Part shown: piece by piece, positions 2,452 to 60,192 of the stretch
Numbering within the stretch: the stretch's first letter is position 1
How the letters are laid out: each line of letters starts with the position of its first letter
DNA from: a virus
Virus record (IMG/VR): IMGVR_UViG_3300033146_002242
Span: 1 to 64,000 of that record
DNA length: 64,000 bases
Strand: one strand, 5' to 3'
Position numbers and translations under genes: made by a program
Notes under the pieces: model-generated
The model's input: the letters and a program-made list of their open reading frames with translations, nothing else
Database searches by the model: none
What the model was told of the DNA's origin: nothing

Positions 2452-2560
2452 GTACAGGGAATTCGATTGGCGAATCCCTGTACACCGCAGACCGGGCGCG
2501 GGATATAAGACGGTATATCTCCTCATACGGATGGGAGATCTCATAAATAAAAAAGATCCG
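2452..2560 (+). ncRNA. CCGCAG pseudoknot leader RNA, copy 2
   Basis: A long hairpin (GTACAGGG, ATTCG / CGAAT, CCCTGTAC; 2452-2483) precedes CCGC/GCGG with loop ACCG pairing to CGGT (2511-2514). The second hairpin is ATCTCC/GGAGAT. Its loop CGGAT (2528-2532) can pair with ATCCG (2556-2560). Compared with copy 1 the second stem changes two pairs (G-C to U-A, U-A to C-G) and the loop-tail pairing changes A-U to C-G, all compensatory. No ORF with a ribosome binding site follows; instead a hairpin-rich non-coding segment does. Confidence 0.6.
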
Positions 2561-2790
2561 CTAACCCCCGGAGAATAGTAGCTAACTCCGTTATCAAAAA
2601 AGCATGTAACTGGGTGATGCAATGTCGTCACCTGCGGTACTGTAGAGTCAAGTACCCGTCTAGGAGTTGGGAACCTAGGGACATATACACGTTAAAACTC
2701 AGCATTCCCGTGTGTGGATTAATTCGGGACAGATATAGCAAGACTATATCGAAGCCAACATGGTGGTATACCATGCTCTGCATTTTTTTT
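2561..2790 (+). ncRNA. Hairpin-rich non-coding segment downstream of leader copy 2
   Basis: No convincing ORF on either strand. The plus strand folds as a chain of hairpins: CGGAG..CTCCG, GGTGATG..CGTCACC, GGTACT..AGTACC, CTAGG..CCTAG, ACACG..CGTGT, ATATAG..CTATAT and CATGGT..ACCATG, ending near a run of T before the stop codon of the minus-strand ribonucleotide reductase gene. Probably a structured RNA expressed with leader copy 2. Identity unknown. Confidence 0.4.
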
Positions 2791-10082: not shown

Positions 10083-10370
10083 CTATTTTTTATCATTTAA
10101 TAATCGCAACTCTTTGTCATAATCACTTCGCCACAAATACTCATCTGTAAATTTATCTATTTCACAATATCCACTACAATTAGAAATAAATCCTTTAATA
10201 TCATATTTCCATATAAGTTTTAAACATTCATTATAATATTTACATGATAAATATTTTTTACATCGAACATTTAATTTTTTAAAAAGATAAATTGTACAAC
10301 CTCGTTCATTGGTTAATTTTTTAATAAATTTTACTTTTTTGGTGTGGTTAAATCTGGAAGGATTTGTCAT
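10083..10370 (-). CDS. Cys-rich hypothetical protein, 95 aa
   Basis: Basic protein with seven Cys, several in the pattern RCKKYLSCKYYNEC and CSGYC, suggesting a metal-binding or disulfide core. The start overlaps the stop of the RNA polymerase fragment by four bases (ATGA), so it is co-translated. It contains no intein C-half or beta' sequence that I can see. Function unknown. Confidence 0.55.
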   Translation of the reverse strand: MTNPSRFNHTKKVKFIKKLTNERGCTIYLFKKLNVRCKKYLSCKYYNECLKLIWKYDIKGFISNCSGYCEIDKFTDEYLWRSDYDKELRLLNDKK

Positions 10371-11890
10371 TTATATTTTATTATATATTTATTTTCTGGA
10401 TTTTGTAATAAATCAATTGGAGAAATTTTTTGATACATATCATACTTAGAATCATACACAATCATAGAATGGTCATCTGAAACCCAGAAATCTTTAAATC
10501 TATTTTTGGTGTCACTAATCTTATACATTTTTAAATTTCTATGCTCACTATAATCTCTTATTAATTTCCGTTTTATATGACCTGTTTGTAAATCAATAGC
10601 ATCAATAAATAATTCCTTAACTGGATTATAATGACTTATATTTGGTTTTTCTTTATTTATATCATGCACAAATAAATCAGTATTTTTTAATTCAGATATA
10701 TGTTGGGAAAAAGGTGTGTTATCAACACTATAAATAGTGCAATCACACAAAACAGAATCTCCATCAAAATCTGCATTATGACCCCCAACTTTAGTGGGGT
10801 GTATTTTTATTGTATCACCATCATGAATAACTGGTCTATATCCTTGATAACTTTCTGGTAATAAAACAGGATCCCGTTTTGCTATAACATATCTTTTCTG
10901 AGCAACAATTTCAACAGCTTCTTTTATAAAATTATATAATTTATCAGAAATTTTATCATCAGCTTTGATTGAAGTTAAAATAGTTTTTAAATTTTCAACA
11001 CTAACTTCATAATTATCTTTATATTCATTAAATATTTCTTGTAGATAATCTGTTTTATATCTACCGCTTCTCATAATTAAATGAAGTATAAATGGTTCAA
11101 ATAAAGAAACAGCCGCCCTTAATGGAACACCTATTTCATCAGGTTTCAATGTTGGCTCGGTTGTGATTACACCAAATGCACAAAAATCAACTCTTTTGCC
11201 CATTAATTTATTACGAATAATACCAGTCTTTTTTTCAATTTTATTTTTTATAAATTCATGATGTACATTAACAGCTTTTTGAATACCATAAAAAAGCAGA
11301 TCTCCTAATACACCCGAATTTTCATTTTGAGATTTGACAGATAAACTTTTTCTTATAATTGAAACATATATTTCATTTAATTCATCTATAATCCATTGGT
11401 TGTTTGAATCTTGATATATTTCACGATAAAAAGGTGGTATAACAGGAATTTTATTTATAAACAAATTATTATCAGTATAAACTTTATTTATTAATTGTAT
11501 TAATCTTTCTCTTTCAGGAGTTCCACCACGAAATTTTATTTTTGCAAAATTCCTAATAAAATTAGTTAAACCTGTCATTCCATCTTCAACTTCAACTAAC
11601 TCACCTTTTTCCGTTATATCAAAATAATTTAACGTCGAAATATATCCATTAATTTTTCTATCAAGTCTTATTAAAATATTTAACATAACAGGATGGATAA
11701 CATTTGCATTTAAATTAATATATGAAAATGTATCCATCCTGTTTTTAGATTCTAACGGTCCAAAAATAATTTCTGAATATATACCATTTGGGTGAAATTC
11801 ACCAGATGATGTAGATCCAGAAAATATATCTGGAGATGTAACAGGTTTTAATTTTTTAGAAAATTTTGATAAATCCAGAATTTTAATCAA
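10367..11890 (-). CDS. RNA polymerase beta' N-terminal part fused to a probable split-intein N-half
   Basis: 507 aa. Residues 1-381 follow bacterial beta': FGPLESKNRMDTFSYINL and VIHP near the clamp, and GGHNADFDGDS with the catalytic Mg-binding NADFDGD at residues 372-378. Right after it, from Cys382, the sequence stops resembling polymerase. TIYSVDN..ISEL and FWVSDDHSMIVYD followed by KISPIDLL look like Hint/intein blocks A and B, and the ORF ends at residue 507 without an intein C-terminus. I infer a split intein with its C-half and the rest of beta' encoded elsewhere. No matching C-half is in this window. Confidence 0.8.
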   Translation of the reverse strand: MIKILDLSKFSKKLKPVTSPDIFSGSTSSGEFHPNGIYSEIIFGPLESKNRMDTFSYINLNANVIHPVMLNILIRLDRKINGYISTLNYFDITEKGELVEVEDGMTGLTNFIRNFAKIKFRGGTPERERLIQLINKVYTDNNLFINKIPVIPPFYREIYQDSNNQWIIDELNEIYVSIIRKSLSVKSQNENSGVLGDLLFYGIQKAVNVHHEFIKNKIEKKTGIIRNKLMGKRVDFCAFGVITTEPTLKPDEIGVPLRAAVSLFEPFILHLIMRSGRYKTDYLQEIFNEYKDNYEVSVENLKTILTSIKADDKISDKLYNFIKEAVEIVAQKRYVIAKRDPVLLPESYQGYRPVIHDGDTIKIHPTKVGGHNADFDGDSVLCDCTIYSVDNTPFSQHISELKNTDLFVHDINKEKPNISHYNPVKELFIDAIDLQTGHIKRKLIRDYSEHRNLKMYKISDTKNRFKDFWVSDDHSMIVYDSKYDMYQKISPIDLLQNPENKYIIKYK

Positions 11891-50265: not shown

Positions 50266-51198
50266 TTAGTTATTCCAGTTTATCTGACCTGGAGTAACTT
50301 TTCCATAACAGTTAATGGTGATGTTGAAATTAGCCTGAGCTATTTCAACATCACCATTTTCTGTTATTTTAATTTTCACCGGGGCCGGCGAAACAACCGC
50401 CAACCCCGGCTTTCCATTGATATCAATTCCCGACCCAGGGATTACAATAGCTGGATCGGGGATATCTTCTTCATCGCCATCACTACAAATGATGGCGATG
50501 TCATCTACACCTCCCTTCTTTTTTAATACACCTCCGATTACAAGGTGTTCCATTTTGCTATCATTGGGGTCGGCTGCGAACCACGCCGCTAAATCCCGCA
50601 GCCGATCGTTTAATATTTTTTTCTCAATAGGTGAATCTGGTACCAGGCCTCGATTCACCCACACTTCAAAACCCCCAGCTTCCACCTTGTAGAAACTGGG
50701 AGTAACTAATTGCTTAGCCTTGTCCATAAAGGACTCGGCTTTTTTATTTTTTGTTGCGGTTTCTGTCTTATTATTAATCAAGTCAGTGGAGCAATTCCTG
50801 ACTTGATTAATGGCCCATGGCGCTGCTGTTGCCATGATTCCAATAGCAACAGCAGCAACTATGTGTCCTTGAAGGAGATTGGCCGACTCCTCCAAACCCT
50901 TGCCGACAATCAGGTTCTTTACGAACCAAATTCCGGCAAGGGAACCAATTCCTAGAATAATTAACCCGCCCAATGGATGGTTTCCCATCCACCAGCGGGT
51001 TATATAAAAACCAGCTGGGGCCGAGCATATTGCCCAGCACCACAGCCAGAATCCCCTATGGGATTCATCAAGACGACGAATCCCATAGAATGCCCCAATA
51101 ATGGTCAGGAAGGTCCCGACCATTAATAGATCATTTACTGTTATAGCGATGCTGTGCAGCACCGCCATTACTTGTTCATAAATAGTTTGTTCGTTCAT
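50266..51198 (-). CDS. GC-rich hairpin-saturated membrane protein, 310 aa
   Basis: Three or four hydrophobic segments (about residues 20-40, 48-66, 74-95 and 112-130) are followed by a soluble C-terminal domain with a Pro/Gly-rich tail. No signal peptide or known family. The DNA is strikingly GC-rich against the phage background, and the coding sequence is a chain of perfect inverted repeats: AATGGTGATGTTGAAAT (17 bp), ATTAATCAAGTCAG (14 bp), CTATGGGATTC, GCTGCTGTTGC and CATCGCCATCA (11 bp each), all with short loops. A CCGCAG pseudoknot leader and an SD-in-loop hairpin lie upstream. Confidence 0.65.
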   Translation of the reverse strand: MNEQTIYEQVMAVLHSIAITVNDLLMVGTFLTIIGAFYGIRRLDESHRGFWLWCWAICSAPAGFYITRWWMGNHPLGGLIILGIGSLAGIWFVKNLIVGKGLEESANLLQGHIVAAVAIGIMATAAPWAINQVRNCSTDLINNKTETATKNKKAESFMDKAKQLVTPSFYKVEAGGFEVWVNRGLVPDSPIEKKILNDRLRDLAAWFAADPNDSKMEHLVIGGVLKKKGGVDDIAIICSDGDEEDIPDPAIVIPGSGIDINGKPGLAVVSPAPVKIKITENGDVEIAQANFNITINCYGKVTPGQINWNN

Positions 51199-51503: not shown

Positions 51504-52094
51504 ATGAATTCTATAGAGAAACCATCATATAATTATGATTTGATTATTTTATTTTCGGGTGGTGCTGATAGTGCCATGTTACATGATTTAGCAATATCAT
51601 CAAAAAGACATCCAATTTATTTAATGATTGATTATGAACAATTGCATAAAGAAGAATTACAATATGCTAAAAGATTGTTAGAATATTGTAAATCTATTCA
51701 ACATTCACAAACTGTAAAAATTCAGAATTTAAAAATAAATTCTGGTTTGACAGGTGATGGTGAAGTAAATCAATATAATAATGTTCATCCTTTTCATGTA
51801 CCATCTAGAAATCTTATGTTTATCTCGATTGCAGCTTCTATTGCAGAAGCTAATAATATTGATACTATTTGGTATGGCGCTGATTTATCAGATAGGGAAA
51901 ATTTATTTCCTGATTGTTATCAGGAATGGATTATAAAAGTTAATGAACTTTTGAAAATAAATGGAAGTAAACCAATAAAATTGGAAGCTCCATTAATAGG
52001 AATGACAAAAGATTCTATTTTACAATATTTGAAATCTAGAGGTTATAGAGAAGAAATTATTTTTTCTGGATATGGTAATTTAGATAAAAATTAA
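51504..52094 (+). CDS. queC: QueC-like 7-cyano-7-deazaguanine synthase, lacking the zinc Cys cluster
   Basis: 196 aa. LFSGGADSAMLHDLA is the PP-loop ATP pyrophosphatase motif, FHVPSRNLMFISIAASIAEA and YGADLSDRENLFPDCYQEW are QueC signatures. Bacterial QueC ends with a four-Cys zinc site; here the protein ends EEIIFSGYGNLDKN without it. Start at 51504 follows AAGGAGG. QueC converts carboxy-deazaguanine to preQ0, used for queuosine or for 7-deazaguanine DNA modification in phages. No queD, queE, folE or dpdA partner is in the window. Confidence 0.78.
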   Translation: MNSIEKPSYNYDLIILFSGGADSAMLHDLAISSKRHPIYLMIDYEQLHKEELQYAKRLLEYCKSIQHSQTVKIQNLKINSGLTGDGEVNQYNNVHPFHVPSRNLMFISIAASIAEANNIDTIWYGADLSDRENLFPDCYQEWIIKVNELLKINGSKPIKLEAPLIGMTKDSILQYLKSRGYREEIIFSGYGNLDKN

Positions 52095-52107
52095 GAACAT
52101 ACACCAA
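52094..52107 (+). promoter_or_regulatory. Weak AGAACAT promoter-like motif
   Basis: AGAACATACACCAA keeps the AGAACAT half but not TATAAATA. It lies about 33 bases before the ATG at 52140 and overlaps the preceding stop. Weak support. Confidence 0.25.
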
Positions 52108-52139
52108 AACAATTATTTTGGAGGAAAAATATTTATATC

Positions 52140-52820
52140 ATGGACGATACAAGAATTTTAATTACAAATGAATATTATCCAAAAGGATTAAATGATGTGC
52201 AAGTGCAAAAACATTATAAGAAATATCAAAAAGAAATTTTATTAGAAGTACAACGAAGAAAAGTTGCTCTTGTAATCTGTCCAGATACAAATAATTTAGT
52301 TTGGTTAAGGAATATTAAAAATAAACCTATTTATTTAAAGAATAGGAGAGATTTTCAAAATATAATTCATGAAAGAGTTTTATCAATTTTTCCTGAAATT
52401 CAACAGTATGAAAAGAAATTAGTTGTTGATATTGATTGTACTAATATTAATAATGCAAAAAAAGTAGCAAAATTATTATATAATATATTTACAAAGTCTG
52501 GATATATTACTGATGTAAAAATATTTTTTACTGGACAAACATCTTTTCATTTACATTTATTTTTACCTAATAAAACAAATATTGAGAGAGGTAAAGAATT
52601 AGTTGATGGGTTAATTAGGAGAGATGCATTTGCTCCAAAATTAATGACAATCAATCAAAGAAGGCCCAAAGATGAATTCCCAAATATAGATTTTTCAACT
52701 TTTAAAGAAAGATCAATTTATATTTGTCCATATTCATTATCAAAATTTGGGTTAATTGCGGGAGAAGTAAAAATAAATGAAATAGATTCATTTAATATAC
52801 AACATTATAAAGTTAAATAG
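52140..52820 (+). CDS. LigD-POL-like archaeo-eukaryotic primase/polymerase, probable
   Basis: 226 aa. NEYYPKGLNDVQVQKHYKKY resembles the LigD polymerase-domain opening (YYP..GLTK.DL..YY). LVVDIDCTNINNAKKVAKLL carries the DxD metal site and FFTGQTSFHLHLFLP corresponds to the sGgkGfHlhl motif of archaeo-eukaryotic primases. DFSTFKERSIYICPYSLS would supply the third acidic residue. LigD-POL fills gaps and adds ribonucleotides in end joining. A separate LigD-type phosphoesterase gene lies at 26751. GGAGG precedes the ATG at 9-10 bases. Confidence 0.6.
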   Translation: MDDTRILITNEYYPKGLNDVQVQKHYKKYQKEILLEVQRRKVALVICPDTNNLVWLRNIKNKPIYLKNRRDFQNIIHERVLSIFPEIQQYEKKLVVDIDCTNINNAKKVAKLLYNIFTKSGYITDVKIFFTGQTSFHLHLFLPNKTNIERGKELVDGLIRRDAFAPKLMTINQRRPKDEFPNIDFSTFKERSIYICPYSLSKFGLIAGEVKINEIDSFNIQHYKVK

Positions 52821-52825
52821 TTTAT

Positions 52826-53391
52826 TCACTAAATAAGAGTGAGGCGGGCCTCGGCTAAGCAGAATAAATATTATATATATTTGCTCACTAAATAAGTGAG
52901 ATATTGTTGTGTTGTTTGGATAAATATTATATATGTTTGCTCACTTATTTAGTGAGACTGGATTTTTCCCTATCATCAGAATATTAATTAGATAAAAACA
53001 TATTTGCTCATTAAATAAATGAGATATAACCTGGCCGTTATTTTAATTAAATATTATGTATTTGCTCACTAAATAAGTGAGAGATTATGTTCTTTTGATT
53101 TAGGTATTAAAGTATTTTGAATAATATATGTTTGCTCATTAAATAAATGAGACAGGGCGTAAGAAGGTAAAAATAAATGAAATAGATTCATTTATAATAT
53201 ACAACATTATAAAGTTAAATAGTTTGTTCACTAAATAAGTGAAATGAGATTATTTTGTTTTTTATTAGATTATTAATCAAATAAAAACATGTTTGCTTAC
53301 TAAACAAGTGAGATGGGGATAGAGAGTTTGGACGTAAATCAGGTTTTTAAAATAAAATATATGTTTGCTCATTAAATACAATAAAAATGAG
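52826..53391 (+). repeat. Array of nine covarying hairpin repeats
   Basis: Nine copies of a 17-base inverted repeat, typically CTCACTAAATAAGTGAG, start near 52826, 52884, 52940, 53007, 53065, 53135, 53227, 53296 and 53369. Most are preceded by an AT-rich arm ending TATGTTTG, giving a repeat of about 38 bases separated by unrelated 15-45-base stretches. Stems covary: CTCAC/GTGAG, CTCAT/ATGAG and TTCAC/GTGAA. The loop of the third copy is inverted. This fills the 660-base gene-free region 52821-53484. It is not a CRISPR array because repeats diverge and spacers are irregular. Confidence 0.75.
53164..53240 (+). repeat. Duplicated 3' end of the 52140-52820 gene inside the hairpin array
   Basis: About 75 bases here match 52764-52838, covering the last codons of the LigD-POL-like gene plus the first hairpin, with a two-base insertion and a few substitutions. 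It shows that the array grew by duplication of gene-end plus hairpin. Confidence 0.75.
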
Positions 53392-53484
53392 AAAAGTAGC
53401 TAATGTAATTTGTTTTAAAAAATAAAAAGAGTTATATATATTTATAAATAGTAGAAATGATTATAATTTTATATAGGTAATAAA

Positions 53485-54015
53485 ATGAAAGCTAATATTG
53501 AAAAAGAAAAACTTTTTAAAAAGTTTATAGATAATGGAGAAATTTGGGCTGATAAATATGGTAATATTTATAAGAAAAATGGAACTTGTAAATATCATTT
53601 AAATAATACTGGTTATTATAGATTATCATATAAATCAATAACTATTTTTGTGCATAGGTTGGTTTGGATTTATTTCAAAGGATTGATATATGATGATAAG
53701 CTACAAATTAATCATATTGATGGGGATAAATTAAATAATACTTTGGAAAATTTAGAAATTGTTGATAATAAAACTAATACAAAACATGCTATACTAATGG
53801 GTTTACGAACACCCATATCAGAAAAAACAAAACAATATTTTTCTGAAAAGATAAGGGGGTGCAAAAATATAAATGCAAAATTTACACAATCCGATGTTAT
53901 TTTATATAGGTATTTATATAAAATGGGCAAAATAAATATAAAAACAATTTCTGAAAAATACGATATAACACAACGAAGTGTAAAAAATATGTTGAGTGGA
54001 AAAACATATAATTAA
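53485..54015 (+). CDS. HNH homing endonuclease
   Basis: 176 aa. [20 protein letters not shown] then [19 protein letters not shown] and NKTNTKHA make the HNH_3/NUMOD-type nuclease core (residues about 50-105). The C-terminus ([31 protein letters not shown]) is a helix-turn-helix of the kind used by phage homing enzymes for DNA recognition. It ends seven bases before the tRNA-Leu gene that carries a group I intron, so it is the likely mobility factor for that intron although it lies outside it. Confidence 0.85.
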
Positions 54016-54022
54016 GTTATAT

Positions 54023-54382
54023 GCCCGGATGGCGGAATAGGTAGACGCAAGGGACTTGACTCGTAAATAAATTGAGCGGCATATTTGAAAAAATATGTTT
54101 GAATCGGGTGAATTCAGGGGAACCTTCTTAATTTTATTTAGAATTAAATGGCAATCCTGAGCCAAGACATCAACGCTTTGATGGAAGGTGCAGAGACTAG
54201 ATGGTGAGGAAAGATACGTTTCTCGTAAAACATCATAAGCGCCCGACACCTAAGGATTTTATTTTAATCTATGGTGATGATATAGTCCAGACCACAAACA
54301 TTGTAAAATGGCAATGAAAATTGTAGTGGTACGAAAATCCCTCGTTCGTAAGAACGTGCCGGTTCGATTCCGGCTCCGGGCA
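54023..54382 (+). tRNA. tRNA-Leu(UAA) interrupted by a group I intron
   Basis: Exon 1 is 54023-54057 and exon 2 is 54334-54382, giving an 84-nt tRNA. Acceptor GCCCGGA/TCCGGGC with discriminator A, anticodon stem AGGGA/TCCCT with loop CTTAAAA (anticodon UAA), long class II variable arm CGTTCGTAAGAACG, and T arm GCCGGTTCGATTCCGGC. No CCA is encoded. The exon junction falls after U34, inside the anticodon. It would supply a tRNA for TTA, a very frequent Leu codon in this AT-rich genome. Confidence 0.9.
54058..54333 (+). ncRNA. Group I intron in the anticodon loop of tRNA-Leu(UAA)
   Basis: 276 nt. The upstream exon ends in U and the intron ends in G, as group I splicing requires. An internal GAG can pair with exon CUU to give the P1 U.G pair. 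Core elements are visible: a Q-like AATCCTGAGCCAAG near 54155, R-like GCAGAGACTAGATGG, and S-like GATATAGTCCAGA, with GACTA (54195-54199) pairing to TAGTC (54283-54287) as P7. Insertion after U34 is the same site as the ancient cyanobacterial and plastid tRNA-Leu intron (subgroup IC3). No ORF inside. Confidence 0.85.
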
Positions 54383-54407
54383 TCAATTTAATTTAAAAGG
54401 AGGATGA

Positions 54408-54638
54408 ATGGAACAACAACATATGTCGAATAGTAAACCCTTATACATACACACATCAGATGGGTGTGTATATCGGGAAGATATATCGTTATATGCCTGT
54501 GATATATCATTTGAAGAAGTTATGGAAAAAGAAGTGAACTATTATATAAATAATGGATATAAAAATATCACTCCTAATGGAGTTGATGTCACTTTTTATC
54601 CTCCCAGTCAAATCCTAAAGTTTACTTATAAACGATAG
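54408..54638 (+). CDS. Small hypothetical protein, 76 aa
   Basis: AGGAGG precedes the ATG. Starts MEQQHMSNSKPLYIHTSDG, no family recognised. Like the other GC-richer small genes here it is rich in perfect hairpins: ATACACAC/GTGTGTAT, ACTCC/GGAGT, and AAATCCTA/TAGGATTT enclosing GTTTA/TAAAC at the 3' end. It lies between the tRNA-Leu and structured RNA A. Confidence 0.55.
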   Translation: MEQQHMSNSKPLYIHTSDGCVYREDISLYACDISFEEVMEKEVNYYINNGYKNITPNGVDVTFYPPSQILKFTYKR

Positions 54639-54639
54639 G

Positions 54640-55115
54640 ATTTAAAAGAATCGACAAAAACTTTTCGTTGTGGTAAATTGTAGTTCGCGAACACCACAAC
54701 ATAGGTGGGTAGATTGCACCTCTCCACCAAAAGTTACAAAACGATTGCCATTCTCGGCCAAGAATGGAAAAAGGTATTATTCGTTTATTGCTCGGAATGA
54801 ATAATATGCTTCGGTGAAGGCATCGGAGAATATAAAAAGAATTAAATAGCTTTGAAAATCAGGATTAACAAATATTGATACTCTCAGATTGCGAAGCCTC
54901 AGAGCTCTTAGATGAGCAGCCGGAGGATAGGCTGAGAGTTGGAGTCGTCGATACAGGGAGTCCAGAGAATACTGTCAAGTCTTAAGGCTTCGGTAGCAGT
55001 ATTTGATGACGGACCCGGTGCAGTGTAGAAGCTAGTCTGGTAACAGAAGGCAAGGCCACCGAAAGGCGCATGGCCCATGCCTCGGATTTGCTTGCGGGGC
55101 TTTTTATCCTAAGGA
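54640..55115 (+). ncRNA. Structured RNA A (copy with long 5' domain)
   Basis: No credible ORF in 54639-55123. The 5' part folds into strong hairpins (GTTGTGGT/ACCACAAC, GGTGG..CCACC, CCATTCT/AGAATGG, ATTATTC..GAATAAT). The 3' part starts with stem ACTCTCAG/CTGAGAGT (54880-54939), then a 112-base block (54940-55051) identical to structured RNA B, then a GC-rich hairpin and a T-run near 55105. Variable 5' half plus invariant 3' half next to tRNA genes is reminiscent of the large phage RNAs GOLLD and ROOL, but I cannot confirm either. Confidence 0.72.
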
Positions 55116-55123
55116 GCGAAATT

Positions 55124-55303
55124 ATGTTATATGAGTGTAATACCGGACTTAACTGTTCTGAGTGTAGAGGGTGTGCTACGCAACTTGAAGTTTGTTCGGA
55201 CTTTATCTCCCTTGAATACCTTTCAGAAGAGTGTACGCACAGAAATCTAGAAATGGAGTTGGAAGTGCCTATAACCAGAGAAAAAACCCCGAGAATATCT
55301 TAG
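55124..55303 (+). CDS. Small Cys-rich hypothetical protein, 59 aa
   Basis: AAGGAGC lies 7 bases before ATG 55124. LYECNTGLNCSECRGCATQLEVC holds five Cys within twenty residues, suggesting a zinc-binding knuckle. It is sandwiched between the two related structured RNAs and is GC-richer than typical phage genes here. No family recognised. Confidence 0.55.
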   Translation: MLYECNTGLNCSECRGCATQLEVCSDFISLEYLSEECTHRNLEMELEVPITREKTPRIS

Positions 55304-55378
55304 CTACTTGTTAGTTTTGTGGGGCGTAGGGCAAGTTAACTCACGATGTTTTTGAAAAATTGAATAAGGAGTTAGACC

Positions 55379-55816
55379 ATGAAAGTATATCTTACAAGAC
55401 GAGTTGCTAATATGACAGATGGTATGGGGCCCATGCAAATCGACAAGTGCTTTCTTTACGAAGGGCATGCTAACAAGTATATAAATGCCCAACCAGGAAT
55501 TATGGGAAGGCGAGCATGTTGGAGCAAGAGAGAGGTTGGAGACTGGGATGTTATCCCTTTAGAAGTTATTGAAGAAGATATTATTGGTAACACCCGGTCT
55601 GCTAATGAGATTAAAATAGAAGACTTGGAAGACTGGACTACGCAAATTTGGAAAGAATACGCTGCCGAATTATATCAAGGGAAATGTCTGATACTATCGG
55701 TTTCTTTGGGAAGAGGGGAATACCAGGTAACTCTTGGTAAAGAAGTTCTCTACCGAGGGTCTGATAAAAGTAAGGCTAAGTATGCGTATGAGGAAGTCAC
55801 AAAACTGGACGACTAG
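55379..55816 (+). CDS. Hypothetical protein between the two structured RNAs, 145 aa
   Basis: AAGGAG precedes the ATG. Mixed-charge soluble protein (MKVYLTRRVANMTDG) with an acidic middle. No family recognised. Base use is GC-richer than the phage background. Its fixed position between RNA A and RNA B suggests the RNA-gene-gene-RNA block was acquired or duplicated as a unit. Confidence 0.6.
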   Translation: MKVYLTRRVANMTDGMGPMQIDKCFLYEGHANKYINAQPGIMGRRACWSKREVGDWDVIPLEVIEEDIIGNTRSANEIKIEDLEDWTTQIWKEYAAELYQGKCLILSVSLGRGEYQVTLGKEVLYRGSDKSKAKYAYEEVTKLDD

Positions 55817-55829
55817 GGTTAAAGTTAAG

Positions 55830-56140
55830 GGTATCTGTGCATAATAGGGTTAAAGTTCCTCCCTGCTGGATGTGTATAAACCAGTCTACACTTGGTATAA
55901 AGACTAAAGGTGGGGTCGACTCCCATTGCCCGCACTATTTTGACACCTCTGGATTGCGAAGCCTTGTACCCTTGTTTAGAGGGAGCCGAGAGGATAGGCC
56001 AGAGGTTGGAGTCGTCGATACAGGGAGTCCAGAGAATACTGTCAAGTCTTAAGGCTTCGGTAGCAGTATTTGATGACGGACCCGGTGCAGTGTAGAAGCT
56101 AGTCTGGTAACAGAAGGCGCGGGGCGTTTTTTAAAAAAAT
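55830..56140 (+). ncRNA. Structured RNA B (copy with short 5' domain)
   Basis: Outer pairing GTGC..GCAC and GGG..CCC (about 55836-55934) encloses hairpins including ACCAG/TTGGT and a GTGGG-GTCGACT-CCCAT arm that mimics a tRNA T arm. Stem ACCTCTGG/CCAGAGGT (55945-56006) replaces the ACTCTCAG/CTGAGAGT stem of RNA A with full covariation. Then comes the same 112-base block (56007-56118) as RNA A, followed by GCGGGGCG and six T, a plausible terminator. 56141-56312 is AT-rich with nothing evident. Confidence 0.72.
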
Positions 56141-56312
56141 AATAAAATGTATAATGGATATTTATATCTAAGAAAAAATATTAAAAAATTAATAAAATTA
56201 TATAGGCAGTATAATAAAAGTTTTATGAAAAAGGATTGAAAGAAAATATAATAAACATCGGAATAAATATAATTGATTTTTTTTATTACATCAAATTAGT
56301 TGAGAGGAGATT

Positions 56313-58355
56313 ATGGAGTTTATTGATTTTGTCGGGAAAATAAAAAAGAATTTTGAATATATGAAATCAAAATCTGATATTTTATTTTATACTACAAGAG
56401 ATAGAAATAAAATATGGGAAACATATTTACAATCATTTCCAGAAGGATCAAATCCAATATATAAAGAAAGAACTGAACATGATTGTAATGCATGTAAATC
56501 ATTTATAAGACAATTTGGATCCATTGTTGTCATAGATCCATCTGATTTAAAGATGTTATCTATATGGGATATGGAAATAGGTGGTTCATATCAAGATGTT
56601 GCTGATGCAATGTCACGATATGTTAAATCACATCCTATTGAAAATATTTTTATGCATAATGAAAAAAATATGGGAATTGAATGTAATAGACAAGAAGTAG
56701 GTGGTAAAATTCTGAAATGGCATCATTTTCATTTAAAAACACCATCTAATATATTAGTCAATAAAGATGTAATAAATGAAATCAAATCAGAATCAAGAGC
56801 CAACAAAGAAGTATTATATAGAAGTTTAACTGAATTAACAATTGAATCTGCTGAAATTGTATTAGATTTAATTGAACAAAATACATTGTATCGTGGCCGT
56901 GAGCATAAAAAAGTTGTGGAACTATTTATTGAATTAAAGAAACAGTTTAATAAAGTACCAGATAATTTAAAAGATCATTGTTGTTGGCTAACATCAGTTT
57001 CATTTAAATCATTATCAAAAATTAGAAATACTGTTATAGGTACATTATTATCTGATTTATCAGAAGGAAAAGATATTGAAGATGCTGTAAAAGCATATGA
57101 ATTTAAAGTAGCTCCTTCGAATTATAAAAGACCGAAAGCTATTGTAACTAAATCAATGATTTTACAAGCTCAAAATACTCTTAAAGATTTGGGTTTATTA
57201 GAATCATTGGAAAGAAGATATGCAACAATATCAGATATATCTGTTAATAATGTATTGTTTGCAGATAGATCTGTTAAACCAGCAATGAAAGATGTGTTTG
57301 ATGAATTATTAGAACAAACACCTGAAAAAATAAAAAAATATGATAATGTTGAAAAAATTCATATTGAAAAATTTATATCTGATGTATTACCAAAAATTAA
57401 TACACTTGAATTATTTATTGATAATAAACATTTAAATAATTTAGTAAGCTTAACAACAGCTGTTAATCAGGATGCACCTTTTTTATTTAAATGGCCGAAT
57501 CATTGCGCATGGTCATATACAGGTGACGTGGCAGATTCGATCAAAGAAAAAGTAAAGCAAGCTGGTGGAAAAGTTGATGGTGTTATACGGTGTTCTTTAT
57601 CATGGTATAATACAGATGATTTAGATATACATGTAATTGAACCCAATCAAAATGAGATTTATTATTTAAATAATACTTCATTCACATCTGGAAAATTAGA
57701 TGTTGATATGAATGCCTCTGCACGAAAAGCTGTGAGAGGTGCTGTTGAAAATATTACATGGAACAACAGAAATAGAATGTTGGAAGGTAATTATGATTTG
57801 ATTATTCATAATTATAAAGTTCGTGAACGTAATATTGATGTTGGGTTTGAAGTTGAAATTGAACATAATGGACATGTATATAGTTTTAATTATCCAAAAC
57901 ATGTTAGCCATTCAAAGCCAATTAAAGTTGCAACATTTTATTATAATCCAAGAACAGATGAATTCAAATTAATATCATCCATACAATCAACTGAAAATAT
58001 AAAAGTTATAGATGAATGGAATATAAAAACAAATCATTTTCATAAAGTCCAATTATTATTGATGTCTCCCAATTTCTGGGATAATGGTAATGGATTTGGT
58101 ATTGGTAATAAACATTATTTCTTTATGTTAGAAAATTGTAAAAACCCAGATAATTGTCGGGGTTTTTATAATGAATATTTAAAAGCTGATTTAACTAAGC
58201 ATAGAAAAGTATTTGAGATTTTAGGGTCTAAAATGAAAGCTCCATATACTGACAATCAATTAAGTGGTATTGGATTTTCAGAGACACAAAAAAATAGAGT
58301 TATTGTTAAAGCGAGTGGGTCTTTCAATAGGCCATTAGAATTAATTTTCCAGTAA
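56313..58355 (+). CDS. Conserved large-phage protein with HDCxxC motif and DUF2135-like C-terminal domain
   Basis: 680 aa. TEHDCNACKSFIRQFGSIVVID near residue 50 is a highly conserved motif in a protein found in many unrelated large phages; its function is unknown to me. Residues about 430-530 contain RCSLSWYNTDDLDIHVIEP, EIYYLNNT and GKLDVDMNA, a DUF2135/YfaP-like beta domain. GAGAGGAG precedes the ATG. The next two small genes are often found beside this one in other phages. Confidence 0.62.
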   Translation: MEFIDFVGKIKKNFEYMKSKSDILFYTTRDRNKIWETYLQSFPEGSNPIYKERTEHDCNACKSFIRQFGSIVVIDPSDLKMLSIWDMEIGGSYQDVADAMSRYVKSHPIENIFMHNEKNMGIECNRQEVGGKILKWHHFHLKTPSNILVNKDVINEIKSESRANKEVLYRSLTELTIESAEIVLDLIEQNTLYRGREHKKVVELFIELKKQFNKVPDNLKDHCCWLTSVSFKSLSKIRNTVIGTLLSDLSEGKDIEDAVKAYEFKVAPSNYKRPKAIVTKSMILQAQNTLKDLGLLESLERRYATISDISVNNVLFADRSVKPAMKDVFDELLEQTPEKIKKYDNVEKIHIEKFISDVLPKINTLELFIDNKHLNNLVSLTTAVNQDAPFLFKWPNHCAWSYTGDVADSIKEKVKQAGGKVDGVIRCSLSWYNTDDLDIHVIEPNQNEIYYLNNTSFTSGKLDVDMNASARKAVRGAVENITWNNRNRMLEGNYDLIIHNYKVRERNIDVGFEVEIEHNGHVYSFNYPKHVSHSKPIKVATFYYNPRTDEFKLISSIQSTENIKVIDEWNIKTNHFHKVQLLLMSPNFWDNGNGFGIGNKHYFFMLENCKNPDNCRGFYNEYLKADLTKHRKVFEILGSKMKAPYTDNQLSGIGFSETQKNRVIVKASGSFNRPLELIFQ

Positions 58356-58391
58356 ATATATTTTTGTTTAATTCCAAACAAGGAGATAAAG

Positions 58392-58775
58392 ATGAGTGAT
58401 GTGAATTTGTTTGAACTTGCAAGTCGTATGAAATTTCGTTTTGATACCACAAAAGGGCAGTTATCCGTAGAAGATTTATGGGATATTCCCATGACTGGAA
58501 AAGTGTCATTAGATGCCATTGCTATTGATTTAAATAAAAAATTGAAGGACACCAATGAAAGTTTTGTAGTCCAAAAAAGCAGTGCTAATAAAATTATTGA
58601 ATATAAATTTGATTTAGTTAAATATGTAATTCAGACCCGCTTGGCTGAAATTGAAGCGCGGCAAAAAGAGAAAGAAAATAAAGAAAAGAAACAAAAGATT
58701 CTACAAATTATCGAAGAAAAGGAAAACGAATCATTGAAAAATATGTCTATTGAAGAATTGAAAAAAATGATTTAA
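58392..58775 (+). CDS. Conserved phage protein, 127 aa
   Basis: FRFDTTKGQLSVEDLWDIPMT followed by LDAIAIDLNKKLKD and a Lys/Glu-rich helix ending SIEELKKMI matches a small helical family I recall next to HDCxxC proteins in large phages. Function unknown. The 5' third is GC-richer than the rest. AAGGAGA precedes the ATG. Confidence 0.65.
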   Translation: MSDVNLFELASRMKFRFDTTKGQLSVEDLWDIPMTGKVSLDAIAIDLNKKLKDTNESFVVQKSSANKIIEYKFDLVKYVIQTRLAEIEARQKEKENKEKKQKILQIIEEKENESLKNMSIEELKKMI

Positions 58776-58776
58776 T

Positions 58777-58827
58777 TTTATTTTGTCGAGAGTGGATTAA
58801 TTTAATTTCCACTCTCGACAAAATAAA
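58777..58827 (+). promoter_or_regulatory. 19-bp perfect intergenic hairpin
   Basis: The arm centred on GTCGAGAGTGG pairs perfectly with CCACTCTCGAC plus flanking A/T pairs. The RNA is followed by AATAGGAG rather than a U-run, so it is more likely an mRNA processing or stability element upstream of the 58842 ORF than a terminator. Confidence 0.6.
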
Positions 58828-58841
58828 TAGGAGATTTTATA

Positions 58842-58937
58842 ATGGAATCTTTGCAATATAAATATAGTAATGATGTTAATTTTCGTAAACTTGTTGATAG
58901 TTTAGATGCAGTTATAGAGAGAAAAACAAATGAATAA
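58842..58937 (+). CDS. Very short ORF, 31 aa
   Basis: MESLQYKYSNDVNFRKLVDS plus DAVIERKTNE. TAGGAG lies 9 bases before the ATG and the stop overlaps the next gene's start. F.KLVDSL resembles the third member of the conserved trio with the two preceding genes. Likely real but unproven. Confidence 0.5.
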   Translation: MESLQYKYSNDVNFRKLVDSLDAVIERKTNE

Positions 58938-59181
58938 AAAATTAATTATATGTTCGGATTTTTTAAAAAATATAGATGATTTTATATATAATTATAATTT
59001 ATCATTAAATGAATGTGTAAGAATTGTAAAATATGATTTTTATTATAAAATTCGAGGGTATAAAAATTTACCATTTATTATTATACCTCCAATAACGTTT
59101 ATATGTGAATTTTATGAAATTGCTAAAATACAACAATTTTTTGAAATACAAGAAAATCAAATAGAAGAATATTTTTTTTAA
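58930..59181 (+). CDS. Hypothetical protein, 83 aa
   Basis: Tyr/Ile-rich small protein, overlapping the preceding 31-aa ORF by eight bases. No motif recognised. Confidence 0.5.
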   Translation: MNKKLIICSDFLKNIDDFIYNYNLSLNECVRIVKYDFYYKIRGYKNLPFIIIPPITFICEFYEIAKIQQFFEIQENQIEEYFF

Positions 59182-59242
59182 AATGTATTTTGAACTATAT
59201 ATAATAAATAGTATTATGAAGAATATATTTTTATTATTTTAA

Positions 59243-59256
59243 AGAACATAGGAATA
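59243..59256 (+). promoter_or_regulatory. AGAACATAGGAATA promoter-like motif
   Basis: Variant of the recurrent motif, but only 8 bases from ATG 59264; the embedded AGGA may instead be the ribosome binding site. Ambiguous. Confidence 0.3.
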
Positions 59257-59263
59257 TATAATA

Positions 59264-59479
59264 ATGAAAATGGAACTTCCTGTTAAAACGATTTTTAAAT
59301 GCACCTCATATTGTAATTTTACAATAGAAGTTATTGAAAATGACGATCTTACATGTTCAGATTGCTTTTTTGATGATAGAAAAATAGATTATGATTCGGA
59401 CACAATGTGGTGTCATTTATTAAAATGTGCAAAAGATGAAAGAACTGATCATAAAAATGTGATATTTAAAAGAGTGTGA
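59264..59479 (+). CDS. Cys-rich hypothetical protein, 71 aa
   Basis: Six Cys (FKCTSYC, TCSDC, WCHLLKC) suggest a zinc-binding fold. AGGA precedes the ATG. It ends four bases before tRNA-Thr. No family recognised. Confidence 0.55.
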   Translation: MKMELPVKTIFKCTSYCNFTIEVIENDDLTCSDCFFDDRKIDYDSDTMWCHLLKCAKDERTDHKNVIFKRV

Positions 59480-59483
59480 TTAT

Positions 59484-59556
59484 GCCGGGTTAGCTCAATT
59501 GGCAGAGCAGTTGATTTGTAATCAACAGGTTGTGGGTTCGATTCCCATGCTCGGCT
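59484..59556 (+). tRNA. tRNA-Thr(UGU)
   Basis: 73 nt. Acceptor GCCGGGT/GCTCGGC, D arm TAGCTCAATTGGCAGAGCA, anticodon stem GTTGA/TCAAC with loop TTTGTAA (anticodon UGU), T arm GTGGGTTCGATTCCCAT. No CCA encoded. Confidence 0.92.
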
Positions 59557-59579
59557 TTCAATTTAACGAGGAGTTGAAG

Positions 59580-59891
59580 ATGGATGAAACTTTAAAAAAA
59601 ATTTATGGTATGATTCCAAGATTGCCACAAAGACAAGATTCATTAGCAGCACAATTTGCTGATTTAAAAATATTTGCAAATTCAATGGGAATGTATGATG
59701 CTGCTGATGCAATATCTCAATGGATTGTTAATATGCCTAAATTAAAATTTGGGTGTTATTGTGATTTGGAAGAAGGGCATAAACCTGATGAATGTGTGAT
59801 TAATTTGGGTAAAAAATCCAATTGTATATATGCAAAAAATATTGAACGCCCCGAACAATGTGAGTATTGGAGACCTATATCTAATGAGTAA
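59580..59891 (+). CDS. Hypothetical Cys-containing protein, 103 aa
   Basis: Start at 59580 has GAGGAG 8 bases upstream; the longer frame would run through the tRNA. YCDLEEGHKPDECVINLGKK and NCIYAKNIERPEQCEYW give four or more Cys. No family recognised. Overlaps the next gene by eight bases. Confidence 0.6.
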   Translation: MDETLKKIYGMIPRLPQRQDSLAAQFADLKIFANSMGMYDAADAISQWIVNMPKLKFGCYCDLEEGHKPDECVINLGKKSNCIYAKNIERPEQCEYWRPISNE

Positions 59892-60192
59892 TTGGGTATT
59901 TATAATTAAAGTTTGTATTTTATGTCAATTAGTAGTATTTTTTATATGTATGCAAATAAGTAAATATGAGGGGTATCCACCATCAGTTTGGAATGTTGCG
60001 GAATTAAAAACTAATATTATTATCTCAATTATTTTTCCAATTGGGATAGTATTTATTATATATTGGTCTTTAAATATAATTGGTGATATTGTTTCAGACA
60101 AAATAGAATACATAAAATCTAAATTGCGAATACATAGCAAATGGCAATATATAATTGATAATATATGGCCAAAGTTAACAAAAAAATTATAG
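59884..60192 (+). CDS. Small membrane protein, 102 aa
   Basis: Two hydrophobic segments (FIIKVCILCQLVVFFIC and IIISIIFPIGIVFIIYW) around a short loop ISKYEGYPPSVWNVAEL. The loop and second helix are paralogous to the 61492-61710 protein (GYP..W...E...I...IFPIG). It overlaps the preceding gene's stop. Confidence 0.6.
   Translation: MSNWVFIIKVCILCQLVVFFICMQISKYEGYPPSVWNVAELKTNIIISIIFPIGIVFIIYWSLNIIGDIVSDKIEYIKSKLRIHSKWQYIIDNIWPKLTKKL

Follow-up and report, generated by a model that had tools for sequence, protein, structure and literature searches.

Genes and features of the locus

The stretch of DNA analysed (the window) covers bases 1–64000 of a 118,287-b virus record and has a mean GC content of 26%. 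Neighbouring genes mark it as that of a tailed phage that encodes a clamp loader, a UvsX-like recombinase, and an RNA polymerase beta-like subunit of the phage kind (window 10367–11890; phrog_2986, E 5.6e-50). Two copies of an RNA module, c1 and c2, lie inside an island of 40–55% GC (versus the phage mean of 26%), where they adjoin tRNA genes, with tRNA-Leu upstream and more tRNAs downstream:

54023–54384, + strand: tRNA-Leu(TAA), interrupted by a group I intron and lying upstream of the modules (ARAGORN, introns allowed)
54872–55051, + strand: RNA module copy c1, 180 nt, comprising a short 5′ leader, the P1 hairpin domain, and a 112-nt constant block (alignment with c2)
54940–55051, + strand: 112-nt constant block of c1, 100% identical to 56007–56118
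55124–55303, + strand: 59-aa ORF immediately 3′ of c1, with a ribosome-binding site; no family match above cut-off
55379–55816, + strand: 145-aa ORF between c1 and c2, with a ribosome-binding site
55910–55934, + strand: tRNA T-arm-like GUGGG-GUCGACU-CCCAU, then acceptor-like UGCCCGC-A, read by eye and ending just before c2
55937–56118, + strand: RNA module copy c2, 182 nt (alignment with c1)
56007–56118, + strand: 112-nt constant block of c2, 100% identical to 54940–55051

The intron within tRNA-Leu belongs to RF00028 (54055–54306, 76.9 bits), and an HNH endonuclease gene lies immediately 5′ of this tRNA gene (the two spanning window 53485–54384) and is itself preceded by an array of eight TTTGCTCACTAAATAAGTGAGA hairpins (window 52864–53385; spacing 56–92 b, intervening sequence variable). 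The two small genes that an earlier, sequence-only reading had placed between the RNAs are real-looking ORFs with ribosome-binding sites. Residues 1–69 of the 145-aa ORF resemble proteins of the Synechococcus phages B23 and S-CRM01 and of Munch-like jumbo phages (tblastn best E 7e-16), the relationship being confined to the N-terminal part; searches with the neighbouring 59-aa and 76-aa ORFs gave no useful relatives. No 5′ acceptor partner was found for the T-arm-like stretch, and a tmRNA or split tRNA at this position was rejected, as ARAGORN called no gene there (introns, tmRNA mode) and there was no similarity to the tmRNA of relatives.

Encoded 3′ of c2 is a 680-aa protein of phrog_1735, relatives of which (<60% identity) occur in large phages of Klebsiella, Serratia, Salmonella, and others. 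Related phages carry tRNAs near the homologue of this gene and, in two cases, also a tmRNA (L009, 12327–12724; L083, 1365–1824), so RNA genes are usual in the region. The edge of one related phage's locus (L079, 1–500) is a tandem array of ∼40 copies of a 12-b unit. Elsewhere in the window, ACCGCAGACCGGGYGCGGRATATAARACGGT is present in three copies (1866–1941, +; 2484–2559, +; 51263–51228, −), two of them shortly 5′ of the ribosome-binding sites of GC-rich ORFs (ATG 1963; 310-aa ORF 50266–51198) and two followed by a hairpin with compensatory differences; the two + strand copies have no Rfam family and the 24-b core has no match in IMG/VR. A GC-rich non-coding segment at window 2560–2790, with several hairpins and a long T tract at its end, had no phage match by blastn, and a perfect 20-bp inverted repeat with an 11-b loop is located at window 58777–58827.

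Sequence and fold of the two copies

The constant blocks had been described as identical, and this is borne out by sequence and alignment: the block occurs exactly twice in the whole record, each time at 112/112 nt. The shared unit is larger than previously described, extending to ∼180 nt with its start at 54872 in c1 and 55937 in c2. Besides the block, ATTGCGAAGCCT and GAGGATAGG, both within the P1 loop, are identical between the copies; the copies differ at 10/16 positions of the P1 arms, in both stem and loop of the P1.1 tip, and at a few bases of the linkers. The alignment was made with attention to structure and corrected by hand at P1.1. The elements of the fold are as follows:

54880–54887 with 54932–54939, + strand: P1 stem of c1, ACUCUCAG/CUGAGAGU, both bases differing from c2 in 5/8 pairs
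55945–55952 with 55999–56006, + strand: P1 stem of c2, ACCUCUGG/CCAGAGGU, all paired
54904–54907 with 54914–54917, + strand: P1.1 tip stem of c1, GCUC/GAGC (c2 equivalent CCCU/AGGG)
54892–54899 with 54985–54992, + strand: pseudoknot H of c1, CGAAGCCU (P1 loop) with AGGCUUCG (P4 loop), 8 Watson-Crick pairs
55957–55964 with 56052–56059, + strand: pseudoknot H of c2
54944–54949 with 55005–55010, + strand: P3, GUCGUC/GAUGAC, enclosing P4 (for c2 add 1067)
54967–54975 with 54996–55004, + strand: P4, GAAUACUGU/GCAGUAUUU (for c2 add 1067)
54956–54958 and 54961–54963 with 55011–55016, + strand: PK2, a possible second, weaker pseudoknot, GGG and UCC with GGACCC (complementarity only; invariant)
55036–55047, + strand: UCUG-GUAA-CAGA hairpin with a GNRA loop, seen in folds and invariant (for c2 add 1067)
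54640–54836, + strand: c1 5′ region, a three-way junction plus three more hairpins, lacking in c2 (−55.0 kcal/mol, z −4.0)

The two copies amount to a natural compensatory-mutation experiment. Between ACTCTCAG/CTGAGAGT in c1 and ACCTCTGG/CCAGAGGT in c2, all eight P1 pairs are kept, five through changes on both sides and three unchanged; the stem had been called "fully covarying", which holds for the preservation of pairing and overstates the extent of change. Three of the four P1.1 pairs, absent from the earlier description, are altered on both sides in the hand-corrected alignment. Given five random changes per arm, the probability that all eight P1 pairs stay Watson-Crick is ∼7.5e-5; all ten P1 changes are transitions, however, and under a transitions-only null the value is ∼0.018, making the P1 evidence weaker than its appearance. 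Transition-only changes fit an RNA helix evolving via G-U pairs, the route expected for RNA helices. Shifting the pairing partners ruins the pairing (28–45% versus 100%), in a structure derived from the same two sequences, and 36 of the 41 pairs counted in it are invariant between them. With 5+3 compensatory pairs from a comparison of two paralogues, P1 changes all being transitions, the claim of direct evidence of selection on RNA structure was too strong.

Pseudoknot H, which the sequence-only reading did not describe, is the strongest helix formable by both copies (−17.1 kcal/mol, compared with −16.0 for P1, −13.5 for P4, and −13.0 for P3). Eight Watson-Crick pairs from the loop segment to the block arose in 0.2% of shuffled blocks (p 0.002), with a duplex-energy p of 0.0085, and the 5′ strand is conserved within the otherwise diverged P1 loop. 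P3 and P4 are invariant in both copies, and covariation speaks neither for nor against them. Folded without pseudoknots, the module is no more stable than shuffled sequence (z about 0); the energy model used is blind to pseudoknots, which may be why the folding energies look ordinary. Unusually stable folding is confined to the c1 5′ region.

The identity of the 112-nt block, helices included, exceeds what structural selection alone would leave, so that recombination or another constraint is needed. For a block that is exactly identical next to a P1 so strongly diverged, the best explanation, we infer, is purifying selection together with recombination between the two nearby copies; such recombination probably also keeps the core identical.

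Relatives and transcript ends

An Rfam gathering scan gave no match to the module. A cmscan of 54600–56300 against GOLLD, ROOL, and all Rfam models gave only two chance hits up to E=5, neither of them GOLLD or ROOL, which at this threshold rules out GOLLD, ROOL, tmRNA, and group I intron. Blastn of the module against phages and plasmids gave no match. Scans of IMG/VR with exact and gapped patterns from four module parts returned chance matches only, most in long open frames and none matched by covariance model, and a GTDB pattern scan returned five matches, approximately the chance level by estimate, none of which is a relative. Covariance model R1, built from c1 and c2, found only these two in their own genome, with no match in 80 loci of 680-aa gene relatives or in 50 whole records, among them the 3 searched phage records carrying relatives of the 145-aa ORF. 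Neither a known aptamer nor cross-species conservation was found for the module in Rfam and the searched sets. No relative having been found in these sets, a broad covariation test is impossible, with two sequences supplying all of the structural evidence; the case shows a limit, in that public sequence alone cannot establish a family this rare.

T tracts are present downstream of both copies, each preceded by a terminator-like structure:

55079–55084 with 55095–55100, + strand: terminator-like hairpin 3′ of c1, GCCUCG/CGGGGC (−11.1 kcal/mol), then U5 at 55101–55105
56075–56132, + strand: terminator-like structure 3′ of c2, block ACG..CCC.GUGC with GCGC.GGG.CGU, then U6 at 56127–56132

In both copies GCGGGGC lies immediately 5′ of the U tract. 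The AAGGAG ribosome-binding site of the 59-aa gene starts at 55111, six bases past the c1 U tract, and is followed by the ATG at 55124; a promoter would not fit in between, and the 59- and 145-aa genes must therefore be transcribed by read-through or from a start further upstream. Beyond c2, the next gene on the same strand, encoding the 680-aa protein, is separated from the U tract by ∼180 nt of AT-rich DNA, and c2 therefore looks like a transcript end. Sigma-70 promoter-like sites were no commoner than in shuffles, and a 10-bp motif common to both copies upstream of P1, considered as a promoter, also occurs elsewhere in the genome.

Interpretation and comparison with known RNA classes

Taking trans-acting and cis-acting readings together, the module is probably a real structured RNA. 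That the locus encodes a structured RNA, which may belong to a new family, had been proposed, and this part of the proposal is favored by the compensatory changes, the pseudoknot, and the lack of a recognized protein or Rfam match, while the suggested link to GOLLD/ROOL did not hold. Our preferred, tentative reading is that of a new structured RNA, so far an orphan: a domain of ∼180 nt whose two paralogous copies sit in the GC-rich cargo island, lie at the 3′ ends of terminated transcripts, and probably act in trans. Transcription through each copy would end at the U tract that follows it, leaving the module as the 3′ terminus of the RNA. Its P1 hairpin, of free sequence, would pair through its loop with the P3/P4 hairpin loop of the block to give a pseudoknotted core, and the stable noncoding RNA may bind a common partner via this invariant core. 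The copies would then differ mainly where structure alone matters, with gene conversion between them plausibly keeping the core identical. The position of c1 directly before an ORF fits a cis-acting leader better.

Such a leader, an attenuator or riboswitch-like element in which the P3/PK2 core and a terminator arm (GGACCCGGUGC with GCGCGGGG) would compete, thereby controlling read-through downstream, is the main alternative and ranks somewhat below the preferred reading. The close spacing of the c1 U tract, ribosome-binding site, and ATG favors it, as does the GCGGGGC shared by both copies, and aptamers usually look like an invariant core with a P1 of free sequence, although here the entire 112 nt, not an aptamer core alone, is invariant. 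The best terminator arm of c2 is part of the block, where pairing would exclude P3/PK2, and the terminator-like structure falls from −17.4 to −10.0 kcal/mol if P3/PK2 hold its 5′ arm. However, the complementarity of the terminator arms to the block is not above that of shuffled arms (c1, p 0.39; c2, p 0.13), and no switch is claimed on this account; moreover, the local hairpin at 55079–55100 is the more obvious c1 terminator. A position before a gene with a terminator or ribosome-binding site fits c1 but not c2, which has no nearby ORF. We prefer the noncoding 3′-terminal RNA because it covers both copies, whereas the attenuator covers only c1 well.

The same arrangement could arise at the DNA level if the 180-bp units were direct repeats at the borders of a mobile cassette of two genes, with the palindromic P1 serving as a recombination or binding site in DNA. 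The repeats do flank two genes in a GC-rich island, 1067 bp apart, and a palindrome would likewise yield compensatory changes, but no recombinase or transposase was found in the cassette, the 112-bp block lacks internal symmetry and is not a typical site, and the G-U-compatible routes of the P1 changes and the long-range, RNA-style pseudoknot point to RNA; we regard this explanation as improbable. Far less probable still is that the block forms part of a coding sequence. It holds a 29-codon frame (TTG at 54939/56006, ending …FDDGPGAV stop) that is open in both copies, and a similar DDGP motif occurs in the long open frame that contained one of the chance pattern matches. On the upstream side, however, TGA closes the frame in c1 whereas it stays open in c2, and the block extends beyond the stop codon. 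Whereas the sequence-only reading had named a long conserved protein across the block as grounds for abandoning an RNA, no recognizable protein family appeared in any tested reading: the ORF, the 29-aa peptide, and a frame-shifted extension had no Pfam or PHROGs match, and the best tblastn E was 9. A terminase-fragment reading, prompted by a chance pattern match, was also rejected, having no protein family match.

Returning to the noncoding RNA, a more specific version, which we consider unlikely and offer as speculation, is the first example seen of a new class of pseudoknotted phage RNA with an interchangeable, address-like P1 and an invariant core binding a host or phage factor, carried as two copies in an imported island. 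Phages carry structured RNAs whose functions are not known, a recognized open problem to which the module, if real, would add a compact family with a testable fold.

Several known RNA classes share features with the module. A group I intron interrupts the neighboring tRNA-Leu, but the c modules have neither an RF00028 match (the only one in the region being 54055–54306) nor a recognizable P7/G-binding core. The tmRNAs of related phages (L009, L083) are likewise pseudoknotted RNAs in the tRNA region of this phage type, and T-arm-like sequence precedes c2; the modules nevertheless lack an ARAGORN or Rfam tmRNA call (ARAGORN in tmRNA mode found nothing over 52000–60000), a paired acceptor stem, an ALAA-ending tag frame, and similarity to the tmRNA of relatives, and identification as tmRNA was rejected. 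Riboswitches and attenuators are similar with respect to the conserved core, the free-sequence P1, and the terminator-like hairpin and ribosome-binding site after c1, and differ in that c2 has no gene directly after it, no known aptamer is present, and the switching complementarity is not significant. Assembly into RNA nanocages is a trait of GOLLD and ROOL RNAs, which the module resembles in being phage-borne, near tRNA genes, and pseudoknotted, with a 3′ part more constant than the variable 5′ part. Membership in the GOLLD/ROOL family, suggested earlier, is unsupported and the least probable of the explanations considered, as neither covariance model matches up to E=5. The shared module is 180/182 nt, or at most ∼470 nt counting the c1 5′ region, compared with more than 800 nt for many GOLLD RNAs (PMC12286853), and here two copies lie a kilobase apart.
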